From an uncultured Saprospiraceae bacterium (GTDB lineage Bacteria > Bacteroidota > Bacteroidia > Chitinophagales > Saprospiraceae): a DNA stretch of 64,000 nucleotides. Below, piece by piece: positions 31,385 to 39,820 of the stretch; the stretch's first letter is position 1; each line of letters opens with the position of its first letter. The stretch lies in contig CALIAU010000022.1 in assembly GCA_938045585.1 (NCBI GenBank), positions 1-64,000 of the forward strand, in the 5' to 3' direction. The notes under the pieces are model-generated. The model was not told where the DNA came from and did no database searches. It saw nothing but the letters and a program-made list of their open reading frames with translations. A program made the translations under genes and the position numbers.

Positions 31385-32638
31385 ATGAATAACTTTTTAC
31401 TCGTACTTATATTCACTTTAACTTCAGTACATTTCGCTACAGCGCAATATTGTAGTGCTAGTAGTAGCATCTCAAGCTTCGAATGGATTGAACGCGTCAG
31501 TTTTGGCTTTGACAAACAAGAAACAGGAAATAATGGAGGCTACTATGATGGCGTATTAGATGCCCCCATGCACGCAAGTATAGGTGAATGTTTTTATGTG
31601 ACCGCAGAACCTGGCTATTCAGGTTTTGAATATACTGAGTACTGGGGAATATGGATGGACTTTAACCAAGATGGTGACTATAATGATACAGGAGAAAATG
31701 TCTTCCTTAGTAGTACACCAACAAATTACGGGATGTCTTCTTCCATTACAATACCCGACTGGGCACCAGCAGGATGGACGCAAATGCGTGTTATTATGAA
31801 ATGGGGGTCTGCACCTACTCCATGTGGAAGCTTTAGCTATGGAGAGGTAGAAGATTATTCGTTGTATATCGAAGATGGATTATATTCATGTGAGAATGAT
31901 GGTGCGAATAGTACTTGGGAATGGATTGATGGGGTAGGCGTAGGAGACTTGTATCTGTTCAATGGAATCAACGATGGCTTTCATGCAGACTATTGCCAAT
32001 TATATACCACTGATCTGAGTGATGATTTATTTATCTCTTGGACTCCAGGCTACTTCGGTACTGTCTATGAAGAATTTGTCAAGGTCAGCTTTGATGCAAA
32101 CAATGATAACTTTTTTAGTGCTGCTGAGACGCAAAGTTTTTCAGGCTTAGATGGACCGGGAAATGTGACCTTCCCATTAGACCCTTCGATAGAACCAAAC
32201 GTATGTCACCGTTTCCGAATCCAGTTATCCTATTATGATAGCGAGCTTTGCCATTATTTCACGTATGGCGAAGTAGAGGAATATGCTGTATACATAACCG
32301 ACCTCTACAATATACACGCACTCGCAGATCCTAGTGCTGAGACCAGAAGAAAACATAACGATGGCGACCCAAGACAGATGAAGCTAAGTACTGTAGAGCT
32401 GTATCCTAACCCTGCAAGAGATAATGCAACATTGGAATTTACTGGAGCAAATACTGAAGAATCAGCAAATATTAGCCTTTTAGATATCACAGGTAAAGTA
32501 TTACTTAGAGATACTAAAAAAGAGTTTGAGCTAACAAAACAGTTGGATCTTAGCAGTATACAAAATGGTACATATATTATCCAAATCAGATATGCGAATC
32601 ACATTGAAACAAAATCCATTATAATCACCAGAAAATAA
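31385..32638 (+). CDS. GEVED-domain surface protein with T9SS sorting domain
   Basis: The 417-residue secreted protein starts with a signal peptide (to about residue 20). It has two GEVED domains: residues about 20-165 (WMDFNQDGDYND, SYGEVEDYSLYI) and about 170-310 (SFDANNDNFF, TYGEVEEYAVYI). A C-terminal T9SS type A sorting domain (about 338-417, VELYPNPARDNATLEF, NGTYIIQI) follows a linker. The signal and sorting domain predict export through the inner membrane and then T9SS-dependent secretion and cell-surface attachment. The GEVED domains are of unknown binding function. A strong terminator follows. Confidence 0.85.
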   Translation: MNNFLLVLIFTLTSVHFATAQYCSASSSISSFEWIERVSFGFDKQETGNNGGYYDGVLDAPMHASIGECFYVTAEPGYSGFEYTEYWGIWMDFNQDGDYNDTGENVFLSSTPTNYGMSSSITIPDWAPAGWTQMRVIMKWGSAPTPCGSFSYGEVEDYSLYIEDGLYSCENDGANSTWEWIDGVGVGDLYLFNGINDGFHADYCQLYTTDLSDDLFISWTPGYFGTVYEEFVKVSFDANNDNFFSAAETQSFSGLDGPGNVTFPLDPSIEPNVCHRFRIQLSYYDSELCHYFTYGEVEEYAVYITDLYNIHALADPSAETRRKHNDGDPRQMKLSTVELYPNPARDNATLEFTGANTEESANISLLDITGKVLLRDTKKEFELTKQLDLSSIQNGTYIIQIRYANHIETKSIIITRK

Positions 32639-32718: not shown

Positions 32719-33195
32719 TTAAAATGGACAATCGCCAGGAAGAGGTTCTTGTTCCTCTAATCCAATAGCAAAATCGGCTGCAAGAGAATCCTGCACTAAT
32801 CCATCATTCAAGACGATTCCTTTAAACACCTGAGTACCATAAGAGAGATTATTCATATGCGCCCTTACTATTATAGTATCTGTAGGACCCACTTGCACAG
32901 GACCCCCACTTCTTGTAAATGGTTGTTCGTTTACATGACTATGCCCGAGTATGCGCCTATATACCAACTCACCTTCGGGAGTAATCACCTCCCACCAGTT
33001 AGCGTATTGATCACAACCCGTATCTGGACTCTCAATCGTAACACTTAGTGTATAATCATTTGGTCCACCGGTACACTCTACTTGGATGATTTTAGCAGAC
33101 TCTTGGGAGTTAGCATTCATGTCTTCTGAGTTTTCACTGTCGCACGCAACGCATAATAAAAGGAGCAGTGGTAAAAAGGAACAAAATTTATTCAT
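32719..33195 (-). CDS. Hypothetical lipoprotein
   Basis: The product (158 residues from ATG 33195) has a lipoprotein signal (MNKFCSFLPLLLLLCVAC). A TTG at 33213 gives six more residues but the ATG fits the signal better. The mature part is beta-rich (YTLSVTIES, WWEVITPEGELVYRRIL, DTIIVRAHM) and ends ..PGDCPF. I do not recognise the family. The paired cysteines (VECTGG, TGCDQY, GDCPF) may form disulfides. It is convergent with the GEVED gene. Confidence 0.65.
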   Translation of the reverse strand: MNKFCSFLPLLLLLCVACDSENSEDMNANSQESAKIIQVECTGGPNDYTLSVTIESPDTGCDQYANWWEVITPEGELVYRRILGHSHVNEQPFTRSGGPVQVGPTDTIIVRAHMNNLSYGTQVFKGIVLNDGLVQDSLAADFAIGLEEQEPLPGDCPF

Positions 33196-33296
33196 AAAGT
33201 AAAATTTAATCAATCTCCATAATTACATCAAAATTAACTTAGAAAGTATCTAAGAATTGTCGCCAAGCCCATTTTTTTGTCTTTTTAGAAAAGGCC

Positions 33297-34197: not shown

Positions 34198-34995
34198 CTA
34201 TCTAAAAATAAACAGTTTTTGCGTAGAAAGAATCGCCTGCTTATTATTTAAAAACTGTACAATATAGACACCAGCTGGAATCCGCTTTATACTTAGCTGA
34301 GCATCTTGTTCCACGGTTTCACTTAGTAGGATTTCACCCTGTAGGTTTATCATCTCTATACTACTAACCCCCTCTACTAAATCAACTTGAATCTGATCAG
34401 TAGCTGGATTAGGAAATACAGTACTTTGAAGATCAGGAAGAAGTGCATTATCTACACTTACCATGGTACTGTCTCCAACAGAATAGCTACATACCTGATG
34501 ATAGTCATTGTCTTTATTATTGCAGTTATTCCCAATCAGAATGCCAGATGGTATAATATTAGTACGTATGCAATGCACACCTGTTTCTTCAGTATCCGTC
34601 GAGTATTCTCCAATTTCACTTTCTTCTCGCACCTCATAGCTTACAGTAAATTCAAAGCAGCCTGCTGGTATGGTAGTAAATTGTTCTGCGATCGAACAAT
34701 TAAAAAAGCTGCCCATTTGGAAATAACTCATTGCGGAGCCTTCAAATACCGTAACCTGTAATAGATTATTTACAGCAGGGCAGAAGTTGATTCGCACTCC
34801 ACCATTCGGATCCATGGGCAATGCTTCTTCTCGATTACAAATCGTCCAGCTTATTTCATTTGCCTCTTCTAAGTCCAAGGGCTCTACCTCAAAGTCACCT
34901 CCTTCAATGTCTAGTTCGTAGCATTGTGCATACATAGAGAAACTAGTATAAATAAGTAATAAGCAGATAGTATATATTTTCTTGTGTAACATCAT
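34198..34995 (-). CDS. Cassette protein B3: secreted eight-cysteine domain with T9SS sorting domain
   Basis: The 265-residue protein is the third B gene of the repeated cassette. After a signal peptide (MMLHKKIY..MYAQ) it has the B domain (about 24-175) with eight cysteines in the contexts QCYEL, TICNR, INFCP, FFNCS, AGCFE, VHCIR, NNCNN and QVCSY. A T9SS sorting domain follows (about 190-265, STVFPNPATDQIQV, PAGVYIVQF). It lacks the roughly 80-residue module between them found in B1 and B2. It lies 22 bases after A3. I know no named family for the B domain; export and surface attachment are inferred from signal and sorting domain. Confidence 0.75.
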   Translation of the reverse strand: MMLHKKIYTICLLLIYTSFSMYAQCYELDIEGGDFEVEPLDLEEANEISWTICNREEALPMDPNGGVRINFCPAVNNLLQVTVFEGSAMSYFQMGSFFNCSIAEQFTTIPAGCFEFTVSYEVREESEIGEYSTDTEETGVHCIRTNIIPSGILIGNNCNNKDNDYHQVCSYSVGDSTMVSVDNALLPDLQSTVFPNPATDQIQVDLVEGVSSIEMINLQGEILLSETVEQDAQLSIKRIPAGVYIVQFLNNKQAILSTQKLFIFR

Positions 34996-35017
34996 TTCAA
35001 TTTTTGAAAGCCAAAGC

Positions 35018-35548
35018 CTATTTGATAAAGTGTGTGATGGCTTCTACGTCTACATTATTACTTTCGTTTGTATCTCCACCGCTGCCACTTGCTATGGATA
35101 CTGTATACACAACTTCTCCATCTTCCTGGGTATCATAATTAAAAATAAAACCTATGGAAGATTTTCCATTAGCGGGAATCGTATCTTCTAAGGTAAAAAC
35201 ATGAAAGTCTGGATCGGAGTCATCATAGGTCCAAACTGCATTATTTACAATATAAAGACCTGCGATCGCCAAGGAGGGGTCATATACAAAGTCTAAATTG
35301 TCATCCTTCTCTAAACGAATCGTGATCGTCCCGACTGTTGCATCGCCAGCCACCTCATACACATCTATAATTCCAAACTCGAAGGTATTACCATCCATTA
35401 TTGAGGAGAGAATATTAAAGGTACAGGCAAGGTCGGGAATGAGTAAGGGAGGATTCTTTATATTAGCTGCCTGCGCAGGCAAACAAATACTAAACATAAA
35501 TATAAACAAGAAAGCTACCGGTAGAAATTTCTGAATTCCCTTTTTCAT
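35018..35548 (-). CDS. Cassette protein A3: secreted DUF11-like protein
   Basis: The 176-residue protein has a signal peptide (KKGIQKFLP..PAQA). A single domain (about 35-176) starts IPDLACTFNILSSIMDG, with IIDVYEVAGDAT, DFVYDPSL, IVNNAVWTYDD and a closing SGSGGDTNESNNVDV. The beta-sandwich pattern resembles DUF11/CARDB-type folds. It has no T9SS sorting domain, so it must reach or leave the surface another way or stay periplasmic. It shares the runs LNILSSIMDG (here FNILSSIMDG) and IIDVYEVAGDAT with A1. B3 follows 22 bases downstream. Confidence 0.7.
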   Translation of the reverse strand: MKKGIQKFLPVAFLFIFMFSICLPAQAANIKNPPLLIPDLACTFNILSSIMDGNTFEFGIIDVYEVAGDATVGTITIRLEKDDNLDFVYDPSLAIAGLYIVNNAVWTYDDSDPDFHVFTLEDTIPANGKSSIGFIFNYDTQEDGEVVYTVSIASGSGGDTNESNNVDVEAITHFIK

Positions 35549-35616
35549 CTGTGGATTAATTTTCTACAAGTTAGGCTTTAACAACTTTGTCCAGAACAAT
35601 AATGTACAGATTTAAC

Positions 35617-35647
35617 AAAAAAAAAGCAAGAACCTTAGGTCCTTGCT
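35617..35647 (-). terminator. Intrinsic terminator after cassette 2 (A2-B2)
   Basis: On the minus strand GCAAGGACCTAAGGTTCTTGC folds into a stem with two mismatches, followed by nine T. It lies 75 bases after the B2 stop and before A3, so A2-B2 forms its own transcript. Confidence 0.75.
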
Positions 35648-35721
35648 CTGATATCTCAATCTCCTTTTTTATTTAGACAATGTTCTAGGGTGTCTGCTCT
35701 TCTGTTTATATATCACCAATA

Positions 35722-36777
35722 CTATTTTTTTACATACAGCTTTTCAGTAAATTTTAAATTCCCTTGCTTGTTTAAAACAGTTACTGAATATGTGCCATCT
35801 AATATACCACCTAACTCAAAACGAGCACCTTCTTCAACGTCGAATTTTTTTACTTCCTTACCTTCAGTATTATACAAGTATACCTGATCGCCTACTTCAG
35901 TCCCAAAGATTTGAATAAAATCTGAACTAGGATTAGGGTAGAAACTAATTGATTTTTCCTCCCCATCAAATGCAAATACTCTAACTTCTGAATATTCAAA
36001 TGCCCCATCAAAATCTACTTGTTTTAACCTATAATAGTTAATACCTAGTGCTGGATCTGTATCTACAAACTGGTAGTCTAGTCTATCATTAGAATTTCCA
36101 TGACCTTCTATTCTGCCTATAGTTGTATATGTGCTGCCATCTTTCGAGTGCTCAATACTAAAAAAATCGTTGTTGACTTCCGATGCAGTTACCCATTCAA
36201 GTAAAGATTTAGAACCTACTTGCCTCGCTTCAAAACTGATCAACTCGACTGGAACATCAATATATAATGCCCAAGTACAATCCCATTCCTCATCATTTTC
36301 AGTGTCATTGCATGCATTCGCTATTAATATATTAGAAGGTATTATATTTGATTGTACGCAACTGAGCCCATCCTCTCCTCCTATAAATGAACCTGGAGAA
36401 TTTGAAGCATGTGGTAACACGGTTATTTCTATGGTAAAGCAGCCAGTTGGTATTGTAGCAGTTTGATCTAAAACCTCACAACCTGTTACATCAGAAAAAG
36501 AAAAATAAGGACTGCCAGTTCCTGAAAAATTGCTATTTAGATTGTAAATATAACTTTCAGCCAAACATATGTTGAGTTTAACTCCACCGTGTGGACCTAC
36601 AGGTAAAGGGTCTTCATTATTGCATATTTCCAAAGTGTACAGTTGGCTAAAATCTACTCCAAGTGGGGTATATTCAAATTCTCCACTGACTATTTCCAGA
36701 TCATAACATTGCGAGAATGAGAATTGTACTATTAGGCAAAGCAGGCTTGTAAAAATTATATGTTTTGAATATTTCAT
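35722..36777 (-). CDS. Cassette protein B2: secreted eight-cysteine domain, module and T9SS domain
   Basis: The 351-residue protein has a signal peptide (to about residue 22, FSFSQ). The B domain (about 23-170) has all eight cysteines (QCYDL, EICNN, LNICL, TGCEV, TGCFT, LSCVQ, NACND, WDCTW). A middle module (about 178-265: VELISFEARQV, VNNDFFSIEHSKDGSTY, GINYYRLKQVDFDG) is common before T9SS domains in this phylum. A C-terminal sorting domain follows (about 275-351: ISFYPNPSSDFIQIF, LDGTYSVTVL). It is the most divergent B copy in the first domain. It starts 14 bases after A2. Confidence 0.8.
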   Translation of the reverse strand: MKYSKHIIFTSLLCLIVQFSFSQCYDLEIVSGEFEYTPLGVDFSQLYTLEICNNEDPLPVGPHGGVKLNICLAESYIYNLNSNFSGTGSPYFSFSDVTGCEVLDQTATIPTGCFTIEITVLPHASNSPGSFIGGEDGLSCVQSNIIPSNILIANACNDTENDEEWDCTWALYIDVPVELISFEARQVGSKSLLEWVTASEVNNDFFSIEHSKDGSTYTTIGRIEGHGNSNDRLDYQFVDTDPALGINYYRLKQVDFDGAFEYSEVRVFAFDGEEKSISFYPNPSSDFIQIFGTEVGDQVYLYNTEGKEVKKFDVEEGARFELGGILDGTYSVTVLNKQGNLKFTEKLYVKK

Positions 36778-36791
36778 TTTCTCGAGTTATA

Positions 36792-37610
36792 TTAGTTAAA
36801 TCGGATGACAGTTTCTGTATCTAGGTTATTCATAAAATTACCCCCTTCTCCACCACTTCCTGCTATAACTGTTGCAGAATAGGTGATTACAGAATTTGAG
36901 ACAACACTAAAAATTCCTTCAAGACCTATTATGGAGGCTCCCATACCTGTGATAGGAATATCAGATACCCATATATGAAAACTAGTATTACTCCCATCAT
37001 AGGTCCAGTCCGCATTGTTAATTGCTGTAGAGGATAAAGTGCTCAGAGAATTGTCATAGTTGAATGTAAAATTATTATCTCTTGGAAATATCACAGTTAT
37101 AGTTCCATTGGTAATATTACCTGTTGTTTCATAGAGCGAAATGAATAGATTAGAATTTGTAGTTCCTTCAATTATGGTGTTTTCAATGAAAAGGCTTAAT
37201 GATAAGTCTGGAATACCCGCGTAACCATCTACACCCGCATCTACATCCGTATCAAGAATAACATTAAATGTTTCTGGATCTGTACCTTCTGACTGTTGGA
37301 GCTCTACTGGAAAATCAGGGTCGCTTTCATCCACATCAACAGTGGTCATCCCTGGGATCACAACTGCAGTCCAATCACCATTTCCATCCGTAACAGCTGT
37401 TAATGTGGTGCCATCAGACTGTGTAATAATTACATCAATCAATGGAATGCCCGCATCAGTGCCATCTTCAATACTATTATTATTAGCATCAAAATATATA
37501 TGACCGTGTATACTAGTAACGATCTCAATAGGTGGACTAGCGCCTAAGGCAAAGGCCTGTCCACAAAGAATCATTATTATACCGAGGCTCTCTAATAAGG
37601 GTTTTTTCAT
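36792..37610 (-). CDS. Cassette protein A2: SdrD-B-like domain plus DUF11-like domain
   Basis: The 272-residue protein has a signal peptide (to about residue 24). A Cna-B/SdrD-like domain (about 30-130: GHIYFDANNNSIEDGTDAG, IPLIDVIITQSDG, VDADVDAG-like DVDAGVDGYA) comes next. The A domain follows (about 131-272: IPDLSLSLFIENTI, NFTFNYDNSL, INNADWTYDGSNTSFHIW, SGGEGGNFMNNLDTE). The first domain is absent from A1 and A3. Calcium binding is possible from the DANNN-type loop but is an inference. It has no T9SS sorting domain. The B2 gene follows at 14 bases. Confidence 0.75.
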   Translation of the reverse strand: MKKPLLESLGIIMILCGQAFALGASPPIEIVTSIHGHIYFDANNNSIEDGTDAGIPLIDVIITQSDGTTLTAVTDGNGDWTAVVIPGMTTVDVDESDPDFPVELQQSEGTDPETFNVILDTDVDAGVDGYAGIPDLSLSLFIENTIIEGTTNSNLFISLYETTGNITNGTITVIFPRDNNFTFNYDNSLSTLSSTAINNADWTYDGSNTSFHIWVSDIPITGMGASIIGLEGIFSVVSNSVITYSATVIAGSGGEGGNFMNNLDTETVIRFN

Positions 37611-37885
37611 CTTTAATTAGTTTGTTAAATATGTAGGATAAAATCCTAAATAATATTCGAATCTAAAGTAATGACTTCACTACTATAATCAAATTACTGA
37701 TAAGATGTGACAAGTAAAAATATTAAACTTGGTTTTGGAGGTGCAATTTTATAAACAGACCTCTGCCTATATTAGTAGATTAAATGCATGCATGAGCAGG
37801 TAGGAATAATACCAAGTGAAACATAGAACTACTCTAGTGCACACGGTGTCCCTATTCCAAGGTTATGCAGCCAGGCTATGGAATA
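37611..37885. other. 275-bp gap between cassettes 1 and 2
   Basis: No gene is seen. A perfect 7-bp inverted repeat TATTCCA (37853-37859) / TGGAATA (37879-37885) lies directly after the B1 stop on the minus strand but has no T-tract, so I do not call a terminator. This gap probably contains the promoter of A2-B2. Confidence 0.4.
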
Positions 37886-38944
37886 TTAATGTGTAATGAA
37901 AAGCTTTTGCGTATGGATAAACTCTCCTTGCTCGTTTTTTACTTTAGCAAGGTAGTTGCCTGATGGTAAATCAGATACATTGATATCTGCATAATCACTG
38001 ACATGTATCTGCTTCCACACCTTACCAGTTAAATCCAATACATGTAAAATACAATTCGCTTCTATACCCTGTACACGAATATATTCACTTGCGGGATTTG
38101 GTAAAATAGTCATATTTCGCACAGCGTCAAACTGTACTGTCTGTATAGCAGAAAGTGTCCTTGTTCCATTTAAATCTACCTGTTGTAATCTATAGTAATT
38201 AGAACCCAAAAGAGGACTTTGGTCAGTGAAGCTATAAGATTGCGTTTCGTCCGTTGTACCATTTCCTGGAACGTTTCCTAAAGATTCAAATTGCTTTCCA
38301 TCTACTGATCGTTCGATAAGGAAGTAGTCATTATTAATTTCTGAATCTGTTTCCCAGGTAAGGAGGCTCGTGTTTCTATTTTTTTGTGCTTTAAAATACT
38401 TAAGGTCAACGGATAGGATACCTGCTGGTATTGAATAATTACACATACTATGACCATCGTCAGATGATTCATTGCAACTGTTTCCGGCAACAATTCCTGA
38501 AGGAATAATATTTGTGCTTATGCAATGCACCCCTGTATTTTCCCCATTTCCAGTAAATTCTCCTATATGACTTATGGATTTAGGCTCATAGCTTACCTTA
38601 ATTTCAAAACAACCTGTAGGTATAGTTGTGAACTGTTCAGCAATAGAACAGTTGACAAAACTTGCGAAAGAGAAAAAACTCGTACCACTTCCTGAAAAAG
38701 TAGAGACCTGTAATAAATTATTTACAGATGGACAAATGTTGATGCGTAGCCCCCCGTTCGGATCCATTGGAATAGGATCTGCATCATTGCAAAATTCATA
38801 CGTCACCTCTGTAGCTTCACCTACAGTCATTGGTGAATCTGCAAAAACTCCACTAGAAATATTGATATCATAACATTGCGCATGAAGATTTGAAAAAAAG
38901 ATAAGCAGAATGAAGTTTAATATAGAGTGTTTGAAATTCATCAT
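37886..38944 (-). CDS. Cassette protein B1: secreted eight-cysteine domain, module and T9SS domain
   Basis: The 352-residue protein has a signal peptide (to about residue 22, LHAQ) and the B domain (about 23-172) with eight cysteines (QCYDI, EFCND, INICP, VNCSI, TGCFE, VHCIS, NSCNE, SMCNY). The middle module (about 178-265: VDLKYFKAQKN, INNDYFLIERSVDG, SNYYRLQQVDLNGT) and a sorting domain (about 275-352: MTILPNPASEYIRVQG, PSGNYLAKV) follow. The first domain is much closer to B3 than to B2 (CSIAEQFTTIP shared). A1 ends 35 bases upstream. Surface localisation is inferred. Confidence 0.8.
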   Translation of the reverse strand: MMNFKHSILNFILLIFFSNLHAQCYDINISSGVFADSPMTVGEATEVTYEFCNDADPIPMDPNGGLRINICPSVNNLLQVSTFSGSGTSFFSFASFVNCSIAEQFTTIPTGCFEIKVSYEPKSISHIGEFTGNGENTGVHCISTNIIPSGIVAGNSCNESSDDGHSMCNYSIPAGILSVDLKYFKAQKNRNTSLLTWETDSEINNDYFLIERSVDGKQFESLGNVPGNGTTDETQSYSFTDQSPLLGSNYYRLQQVDLNGTRTLSAIQTVQFDAVRNMTILPNPASEYIRVQGIEANCILHVLDLTGKVWKQIHVSDYADINVSDLPSGNYLAKVKNEQGEFIHTQKLFITH

Positions 38945-38979
38945 ATTAATTTTAAAAGTTGACGCAAATAATTATCCTA

Positions 38980-39585
38980 CTATTGCTGGAAATAAGTAAC
39001 AGTCTGGTTGTCTGAATTATTACTACCATTGGTTTCACCACCACTCCCCAAAAATACACTGGCCGCATAAGTAGTAATTCCATCTCCGTTAGGAACGTAG
39101 TTAAATAGTACTCCTATGGAAGATTTTCCATTTGCATTTATGGCATTTGATGTAGTCCAAACATGAAACGCAGAATTTGTGCCATCATAGGTCCAATCAG
39201 CATTATTTACTACATATGGTCCAGCTAGAACCATATTTGTATCGTAAGTGAATGTCAAGTTAGGATCCTTAGGCATGGTCACTGTAATCTCACCACTGGT
39301 TGCATCTCCAGCTACTTCATAGACATCAATGATTACAAACTCAAATGTGCTACCATCCATAATACTTGAAAGTATATTTAAGGTACAAGTAAGATCTGGT
39401 ATCATAGAACCTGAAAACAAGGGGCTATTCGATTGCGTAATTGAAGAAGCCGCTGTTGCAAGAATTGTTTCTTCTTGTAATTGTATAGAGGTATTATTTC
39501 CTTGAAGTTCTACTCCAGTAGAGAATCCAAGGCTGTTCATGAAAAATATTGCAAGAAGACTAAGAGTGAATTTAGTAGATGTCAT
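38980..39585 (-). CDS. Cassette protein A1: secreted DUF11-like protein
   Basis: The 201-residue protein has a signal peptide (to about residue 24). A low-complexity Ser/Thr/Gln stretch (about 25-60) and the A domain (about 62-201) follow. The A domain contains IPDLTCTLNILSSIMDG, IIDVYEVAGDATSGEI, FTYDTNM, VVNNADWTYDGTNSAFHVW and a closing GSGGETNGSNNSDNQ. It lacks a T9SS sorting domain, like the other A proteins. It is the first gene of the first cassette and is followed by B1 after 35 bases. The start is the ATG at 39585, immediately before the signal. Confidence 0.75.
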   Translation of the reverse strand: MTSTKFTLSLLAIFFMNSLGFSTGVELQGNNTSIQLQEETILATAASSITQSNSPLFSGSMIPDLTCTLNILSSIMDGSTFEFVIIDVYEVAGDATSGEITVTMPKDPNLTFTYDTNMVLAGPYVVNNADWTYDGTNSAFHVWTTSNAINANGKSSIGVLFNYVPNGDGITTYAASVFLGSGGETNGSNNSDNQTVTYFQQ

Positions 39586-39761: not shown

Positions 39762-39792
39762 TAAAAAAAGCCCAACTACAGGGTAGTCAGGC
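39762..39792 (-). terminator. Intrinsic terminator after the DUF1573 gene
   Basis: On the minus strand GCCTGACTACCCTGTAGTTGGGC forms a stem (GCC/GGC and ACTAC/GTAGT arms) followed by TTTTTTTAT. It lies 29 bases after the DUF1573 stop. Confidence 0.65.
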
Positions 39793-39820
39793 TATATATT
39801 GTTTAAAACGTAGTCTCGAA

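Follow-up and report, generated by a model that had tools for sequence, protein, structure and literature searches.

Introduction

C-terminal sorting domains (CTDs) are the recognition signal of the substrates of the type IX secretion system (T9SS), and NCBIfam includes a model for a type C CTD. In the cellulosome, many enzymes carry a C-terminal tag, the receptors are found on anchored proteins, a few of which have several, and connectors bear both. In the respective reports, T9SS CTDs of types A, B and C are listed (PMC10202324), the type A CTD is given an immunoglobulin-like (Ig-like) fold (PMC11285876), type B cargo is encoded beside SprF-like shuttles, with orphans sharing one shuttle (PMC12618676), and cohesins and dockerins are not reported for the Bacteroidetes genome under study (PMC5831590). 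The present analysis concerns a window of 64,000 nucleotides from an uncultured Saprospiraceae bacterium (assembly GCA_938045585.1, contig CALIAU010000022.1, positions 1 to 64,000), in which two kinds of gene for secreted proteins, A and B, alternate as three tandem pairs at positions 34198-39585. Gene A is closed by a domain of about 140 amino acids (aa), here called the A-tail, and the corresponding domain of gene B, the B-head, usually follows the signal peptide directly and often stands on proteins with a type A CTD.

It was verified that the A-tail is a C-terminal module occupying the T9SS CTD position on secreted enzymes, and that the B-head lies N-terminally for the most part, the proteins that carry it often ending in a T9SS CTD. 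Since the tail lies at the protein end in place of an export tag and the head in front of tagged proteins, the two have the look of a plug and a socket. Building on position, swap, adjacency, co-occurrence and head-plus-tail proteins, all observed as described below, it is proposed, at what we regard as even chances, that A-tail and B-head could dock with each other and so make up one head-and-tail module of the outer surface.

The A-tail in the position of a sorting domain

Genomes are designated here by G numbers, G000 being the window genome, G473 a genus mate and the others related genomes. The window genome (4.3 Mb, 98% complete) encodes the T9SS translocon SprA (2108.9 bits; searched in this genome only). 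The A3 search of this genome gave 25 places, and reconstruction of the open reading frames (ORFs) put the domain at the C-terminus in 23 proteins; their lengths range from 176 to 1884 aa, and a contig end truncates some at the N-terminus. The A-tail is a modular C-terminal unit on about two dozen secreted proteins, mostly without a neighbouring B. In loci from the window's genus, G399 and more distant genomes, it ended 0-7 residues from the ORF end in all 83 profile matches (one ORF being cut by a contig end), and the further A-tails L095, L131 and L176 are likewise C-terminal. Among 88 A-tail proteins counted, one cut by a contig end, none had the domain internally and none also had a type A CTD; these position counts leave out two family-level matches in G493, a partial one in G473 and a contig-end fragment in G000. 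Where complete, the N-termini of A-tail proteins are mostly hydrophobic as read by eye.

The A-tail corresponds to no Pfam or NCBIfam family, and none of 23 members matched a CTD model there at E 1. Compared with the type A CTD profile by hhalign, it reached a probability of 0.1-0.3%, near the decoys, and neither A-tail nor B-head profiles had a meaningful match among PDB sequences (best E 0.013, to a chain named exoglucanase/xylanase). Single members hit DUF11, CARDB or DUF7933 weakly. The first-pass annotation had called gene A DUF11-like, an identity (PF01345) that was given up because no match exceeded the cut-off and only 1/23 A-tails hit DUF11, at E 0.046. A membrane-anchor or sortase-type C-terminus was also rejected: in 89 A-tail proteins, the best 19-residue hydrophobic stretch among the final 40 residues averages at most 1.42, with a mean of 0.32.

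The carriers of the A-tail include an M36 peptidase, an M14 carboxypeptidase, an M43 peptidase, an alpha/beta hydrolase, and Vps10/BNR, beta-helix and SdrD-rich proteins. The M36 carrier scored 917.3 bits against NF038113, 'T9SS-dependent M36' (cut-off 885), over positions 8-779 of 869; the missing part, the last ~90 positions, is the CTD, and the A-tail stands there instead. Homologues of three cargo families were then compared over 40 related genomes, with 30 loci per family classified among many more matches. The 90 homologous ORFs ended in an A-tail in 6 cases, and in a type A CTD in 61, while 23 ends could be assigned to neither; the locus edge truncates the ORF in 15 of these 23. By family, A-tail, CTD and unassigned ends numbered 2, 23 and 5 for M36, 2, 24 and 4 for M14, and 2, 14 and 14 for Vps10/BNR. 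All six A-tail-ended homologues come from the window's genus, and M36 and M14 paralogues within the same genomes retain the CTD. Judged from these ends, the M36, M14 and Vps10/BNR cargo appears interchangeable between the A-tail and a known CTD.

A different tail, with a pattern like GF....F.A.I..C, was noticed in the CTD place of three M36 and Vps10/BNR homologues at loci L219, L254 and L255, possibly a further sorting module.

The B-head and its architectures

A B-head profile built from 24 diverse heads (profile A7) found no relative in Pfam or NCBIfam. Narrow window-type heads occur in 3/398 genomes and are confined to the genus, except for one weak match in G399; the wider B-head numbers 15 in G000, 17 in G399 and 7 in G473. 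Altogether 64 B-head ORFs were collected; as overlapping loci duplicate four, 60 are distinct. The head begins within the first 60 residues in 60/64 ORFs, and the ORF ends in a type A CTD in 39, in an A-tail in 4 and in neither in 21 (seven are truncated at a locus end, two bear a type B CTD and one has a sub-threshold dockerin-like end). The four head-plus-tail ORFs represent three distinct proteins, in G000, G399 and G493. In G399, one protein has a type A CTD, PKD domains and three B-heads; in G607, one has two B-heads and a CTD. On contig C9 of the window genome, a cluster presents, in order, an A-tail protein, a head, another head, a head without CTD, a window-type B and a head-plus-tail protein. 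The eight cysteines that the first-pass annotation had counted in the window B proteins are present, in the N-terminal domain; a definition of B by an eight-cysteine core was rejected, since heads hold 0-8 cysteines and no heads but those of window B1-B3 and the G473 pair have eight.

Some further B-head proteins were observed. Those at L327 and L337 carry a type B CTD (TIGR04131), and many SprB repeats are present in one of the two; L323, L325 and L336 (G399, G190) end in a dockerin-like D.N.DG.....D...W..NN pattern, read by eye; at the C-terminus of L323 a Dockerin_1 match lies just under the cut-off. On contig C16 of the window genome (L047:3904-7334), three window-type B genes stand in tandem, no A-tail being present within the 10 kb read, and the first of these genes has only 151 aa and lacks the CTD.

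Adjacency and co-occurrence

In distant genomes, 18/26 evaluable A-tail genes (3 more were not evaluable) have a gene with a type A CTD next downstream, on the same strand and within 160 bases. The partners measure 333-373 aa or 268-270 aa, which are the sizes of window B1/B2 and of B3, respectively. In the control, made of 61 long type-A-CTD genes of which 46 were evaluable, a CTD gene came next in 1/46 (Fisher 6e-10). A recognisable B-head protein follows 16/25 distinct distant A-tail genes, with 11/16 of these partners having supplied rows to the head profile. By hhalign, the N-terminal domain of the partners and the window B-head are homologues (probability 96, E 2.4e-9, score 58 versus a decoy maximum of 12.7), a result that depends on the alignment: the whole set and the nearer subset gave 95-96%, the first alignment 27%, and the more distant subset alone against window B 2.3% (E 0.02). 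Dyadobacter jejuensis and distant Saprospiraceae show the A-then-B order too, again with a homologous B-head.

In A-rich genomes, a CTD protein comes after the A-tail gene in 5/23 cases in G000 (three in the window), 2/19 in G473 and 1/15 in G399, and these partners include 4, 1 and 1 B-head proteins, respectively; an additional diverged A-B pair of the window genome is found on contig C21. Adjacent pairing, which the first-pass annotation had suggested looking for across Bacteroidota genomes, is borne out in distant genomes and rare in A-rich ones. Over 80 genomes, B-heads were present in 14/24 A-positive versus 0/56 A-negative genomes. In the three A-rich genomes, 27 heads lie outside the profile (15/17 in G399, 6/15 in G000, 6/7 in G473).

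As regards distribution, the A-tail was found in 6/395 genomes of the phylum with the narrow profile and in 10/395 with the wide one, own genome included, and in 21/398 genomes in the family-wide search, which scored at most 10 candidates per genome. It is abundant in the window genome with 24 matches (one a contig-end fragment), G473 with 22 and G399 with at least 16 genes. Relatives of the window A-tails were located with a ten-row alignment of closer sequences; the closest named ones belong to uncultured Saprospiraceae, and more distant ones to Sediminicola luteus and Dyadobacter jejuensis.

The window array and its history

The array consists of six minus-strand ORFs in the order A1-B1-A2-B2-A3-B3. 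Its features are the following, signal peptides being read by eye.

38980 to 39585, minus strand: A1, 201 aa, with signal peptide, short linker and A-tail at residues 60-200
38983 to 39408, minus strand: A-tail of A1, by the A-tail profile
37886 to 38944, minus strand: B1, 352 aa, with signal peptide, B-head, middle stretch and type A CTD
38432 to 38869, minus strand: B-head of B1, by the B-head profile
37898 to 38104, minus strand: type A T9SS CTD of B1 (Por_Secre_tail, 36.9 bits)
36792 to 37610, minus strand: A2, 272 aa, with signal peptide, an SdrD_B-like domain below the cut-off and A-tail
36795 to 37223, minus strand: A-tail of A2, by the A-tail profile
35722 to 36777, minus strand: B2, 351 aa, with signal peptide, B-head, middle stretch and type A CTD
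36268 to 36702, minus strand: B-head of B2, by the B-head profile
35755 to 35940, minus strand: type A T9SS CTD of B2 (27.7 bits)
35018 to 35548, minus strand: A3, 176 aa, with signal peptide, A-tail and little else
35021 to 35443, minus strand: A-tail of A3, by the A-tail profile
34198 to 34995, minus strand: B3, 265 aa, with signal peptide, B-head and type A CTD, the middle stretch of B1/B2 being absent
34480 to 34917, minus strand: B-head of B3, by the B-head profile
34210 to 34419, minus strand: type A T9SS CTD of B3 (40.1 bits)
35623 to 35649, minus strand: terminator-like hairpin 3' of cassette 2, by hairpin scan
39769 to 39793, minus strand: terminator-like hairpin separating cassette 1 from the DUF1573 gene upstream, by hairpin scan

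The alternation, the gene boundaries and the spacing described in the first-pass annotation were all recovered, with A-to-B gaps of 35, 14 and 22 bases and B-to-A gaps of 275 and 173 bases. Likewise, the sorting domains of B1, B2 and B3 all exceed the Pfam cut-off of 27 bits for the type A T9SS sorting domain, and A1-A3 had no sorting-domain match in the family scans of the window proteins, A1 and A3 being scarcely more than signal peptide and tail. The middle stretch of B1 and B2 is presumably Fn3-like. The strong terminator claimed after cassette 2 corresponds to a terminator-like hairpin at 35649-35623; such sites on both strands numbered 4 against 3.1 expected in shuffles, a count not above chance, so that weight is given only to long stems with T-runs. 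Close to the array, positions 31385-32638 encode a GEVED-domain protein ending in a type A CTD, and 32719-33213 a small gene, lipoprotein-like by eye, that had no family match above the cut-off.

The cassettes are diverged duplicates: A1 and A3 share 60% identity and B1 and B3 57%, while A2 (34-42%) and B2 (35-38%) are more diverged from the other copies. Trees were made for the window's genus, one from 43 A-tails and one from 22 B-heads, and read by topology without branch supports; in them the window A-tails and the syntenic G473 member form one clade, and the window B-heads likewise. The G473 pair occupies the same genomic place, adjoining a gene that we take to be YaaA-like. Duplication was said never to involve one gene alone, which fails beyond the window, where the genome's 24 A-tail matches and 15 B-heads are mostly not adjacent. 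The two are thus usually apart in the window's genus, and this is not so in the distant genomes. Probably, each A-tailed protein was ancestrally encoded side by side with its own B, and in the window's genus and G399 the tail then moved onto many proteins.

Evidence against docking and alternative readings

Several observations weigh against a docking pair. An adjacent B-head accompanies just 4/23 A-tail genes in G000, 1/20 in G473 and 1/16 in G399, and the Sediminicola luteus A-tail gene is solitary. No B-head was detected at E 1e-4 in 10/24 A-tail genomes, including G249 and G756, and the numbers of tails and heads are loosely related (22 tails and 7 heads in G473, 2 and 5 in G434). As 12/14 head-positive genomes had supplied rows to the head profile, the independent part of the co-occurrence is 2/12 versus 0/56 (p 0.029). 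Similarly, of the 23 CTDs behind the CTD model, A-tail partner genes contributed 19; a stricter model, based on just five Pfam-confirmed CTDs, still recovers 54/61 control CTDs and 14/18 partner CTDs. The A of the G473 pair is nearest to A2 but its B is nearest to B1/B3; this joining of an A2-like tail to a B1/B3-like B indicates that pairs can be reshuffled. With the wide profile, four weak partial A-tail matches are internal (E 2e-5 to 5e-5), three of them (L177, L179 and L180, in G013, G131 and G034) in series within proteins of ~7600 aa and the fourth at L178 (G208). The four extra wide-profile genomes hold such matches only, far weaker than family members, and the serial placement suggests that remote A-tail relatives may be ordinary repeats. 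The A-tail at L060 (9030-9563) also belongs to this side, its protein of 177 aa having an N-terminus that resembles a lipoprotein signal. Finally, were the A-tail a T9SS signal in its own right, a CTD swap and head-plus-tail proteins would be expected just as much.

This leads to the first alternative, rather unlikely in our judgement, in which the A-tail would be a fourth class of T9SS C-terminal signal, read directly by the translocon or a shuttle, and the B-head protein a co-regulated partner, ligand or attachment factor instead of a carrier. The C-terminal position would follow naturally, as would the A-tail in place of the type A CTD in three cargo families (two of them with paralogues in the same genome) and the A-tail genomes where no head was detected. 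In addition, several CTD sequence families exist, types A, B and C, according to PMC10202324, and orphan A-tails without a nearby B resemble type B substrates that are likewise orphans and use a common shuttle (PMC12618676). Such a signal would, however, have no profile likeness to the type A CTD (hhalign 0.1-0.3%), no CTD model appeared among its NCBIfam matches, and the CTD-bearing B-head neighbour, the head/tail co-occurrence across genomes and the multi-head proteins would be left unaccounted for.

It is considered quite improbable that A-tail and B-head are ordinary Ig-like adhesin modules, frequent companions in large surface proteins, and that the A-tailed proteins have lost surface export, being periplasmic or released. 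Some head and tail profiles are weakly alike, with a probability of up to 28, above all decoys, whereas the window heads alone against tail profiles gave 0.1-0.2%, within the decoys. The weak single-member matches to DUF11, CARDB and DUF7933 and the four internal wide-profile matches would fit repeated modules of this kind, but 0/88 family-level A-tails are internal, and co-occurrence and adjacency far exceed the control. Very improbable, and already disfavoured, is the view that two unrelated secreted genes, functionally unconnected, were duplicated locally in tandem: neighbouring genes often duplicate in tandem, and A-tail and B-head are mostly separate in the window genome, yet the A-then-B order with a homologous B-head recurs in distant Saprospiraceae and Dyadobacter jejuensis. 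Conversely, A as a mere partner of B without a wider role was rejected, given that its domain ends many other secreted proteins.

A proposed docking mechanism

If A-tail and B-head are a docking pair, the A-tail would bind the B-head in the periplasm or at the surface, as a dockerin binds a cohesin, and B would be exported and anchored by the T9SS through its own CTD. The A-tailed protein could travel out with B or be caught by it, and, by being carried or caught in this way, enzymes devoid of a CTD would reach the surface. The partnership that the first-pass annotation had proposed for A and B, with B providing the T9SS anchor, is independently supported by adjacency, co-occurrence and fusions, the binding of A to B being the step that we infer. 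Multi-head proteins may act as scaffolds and head-plus-tail proteins as connectors, and the nearly bare tails of A1 and A3 might be caps or structural subunits, produced together with their own B. Since the tail has spread to many proteins in the window's genus and G399, shared heads would be needed there in trans.

More tentatively, and at somewhat less than even chances, the whole could be a cellulosome-like plug-and-socket system of Bacteroidota, in which enzymes would swap their CTD for an A-tail, be exported in trans and assemble on T9SS-anchored scaffolds of one to three heads with head-plus-tail connectors; the window array would then supply three dedicated sockets with nearly bare plugs. 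Tail and head are unnamed in Pfam and NCBIfam, and no such tail, head or pair was described in the literature searched (titles and abstract starts, among the matches listed, with few subscription papers). If the A-tail replaces the signal on textbook T9SS enzymes, current annotation would miss some surface proteins, and Bacteroidota may export or assemble enzymes in trans. Moreover, if docking is true, it would offer a new orthogonal pair for surface display, and T9SS carriage of signal-less partners would become directly testable.

Comparison with known systems

To DUF11 and CARDB the A-tail is related by weak single-member matches below the cut-offs and by an NN-containing end motif that we take to be similar; it differs in being single and C-terminal here. 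With cohesin and dockerin the likeness is one of arrangement only, namely one tag on many enzymes, a receptor on anchored proteins, multi-receptor proteins (2 distinct multi-head proteins) and proteins that unite tag and receptor as connectors do. A-tails and B-heads had no match to cohesin or dockerin models, the sub-threshold Dockerin_1 hit of L323 lying at the protein C-terminus, and the B-head, unlike cohesin, is mostly N-terminal and has no family match, its binding to the tail being putative.

The closest comparison is with the T9SS CTDs of type A (TIGR04183/PF18962) and type B (TIGR04131/PF13585), which, like the A-tail, are C-terminal modules on secreted cargo. The type A CTD and the A-tail hold an interchangeable place on the same enzymes, and type B cargo and A-tail genes both often have a dedicated partner gene next to them, with orphans elsewhere in the genome. 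Unlike these CTDs, the A-tail is ~140 aa long and matches no family or profile. The partner differs as well: that of type B cargo is an outer-membrane PorP/SprF-like shuttle, whereas that of the A-tail is a secreted protein with a CTD of its own.

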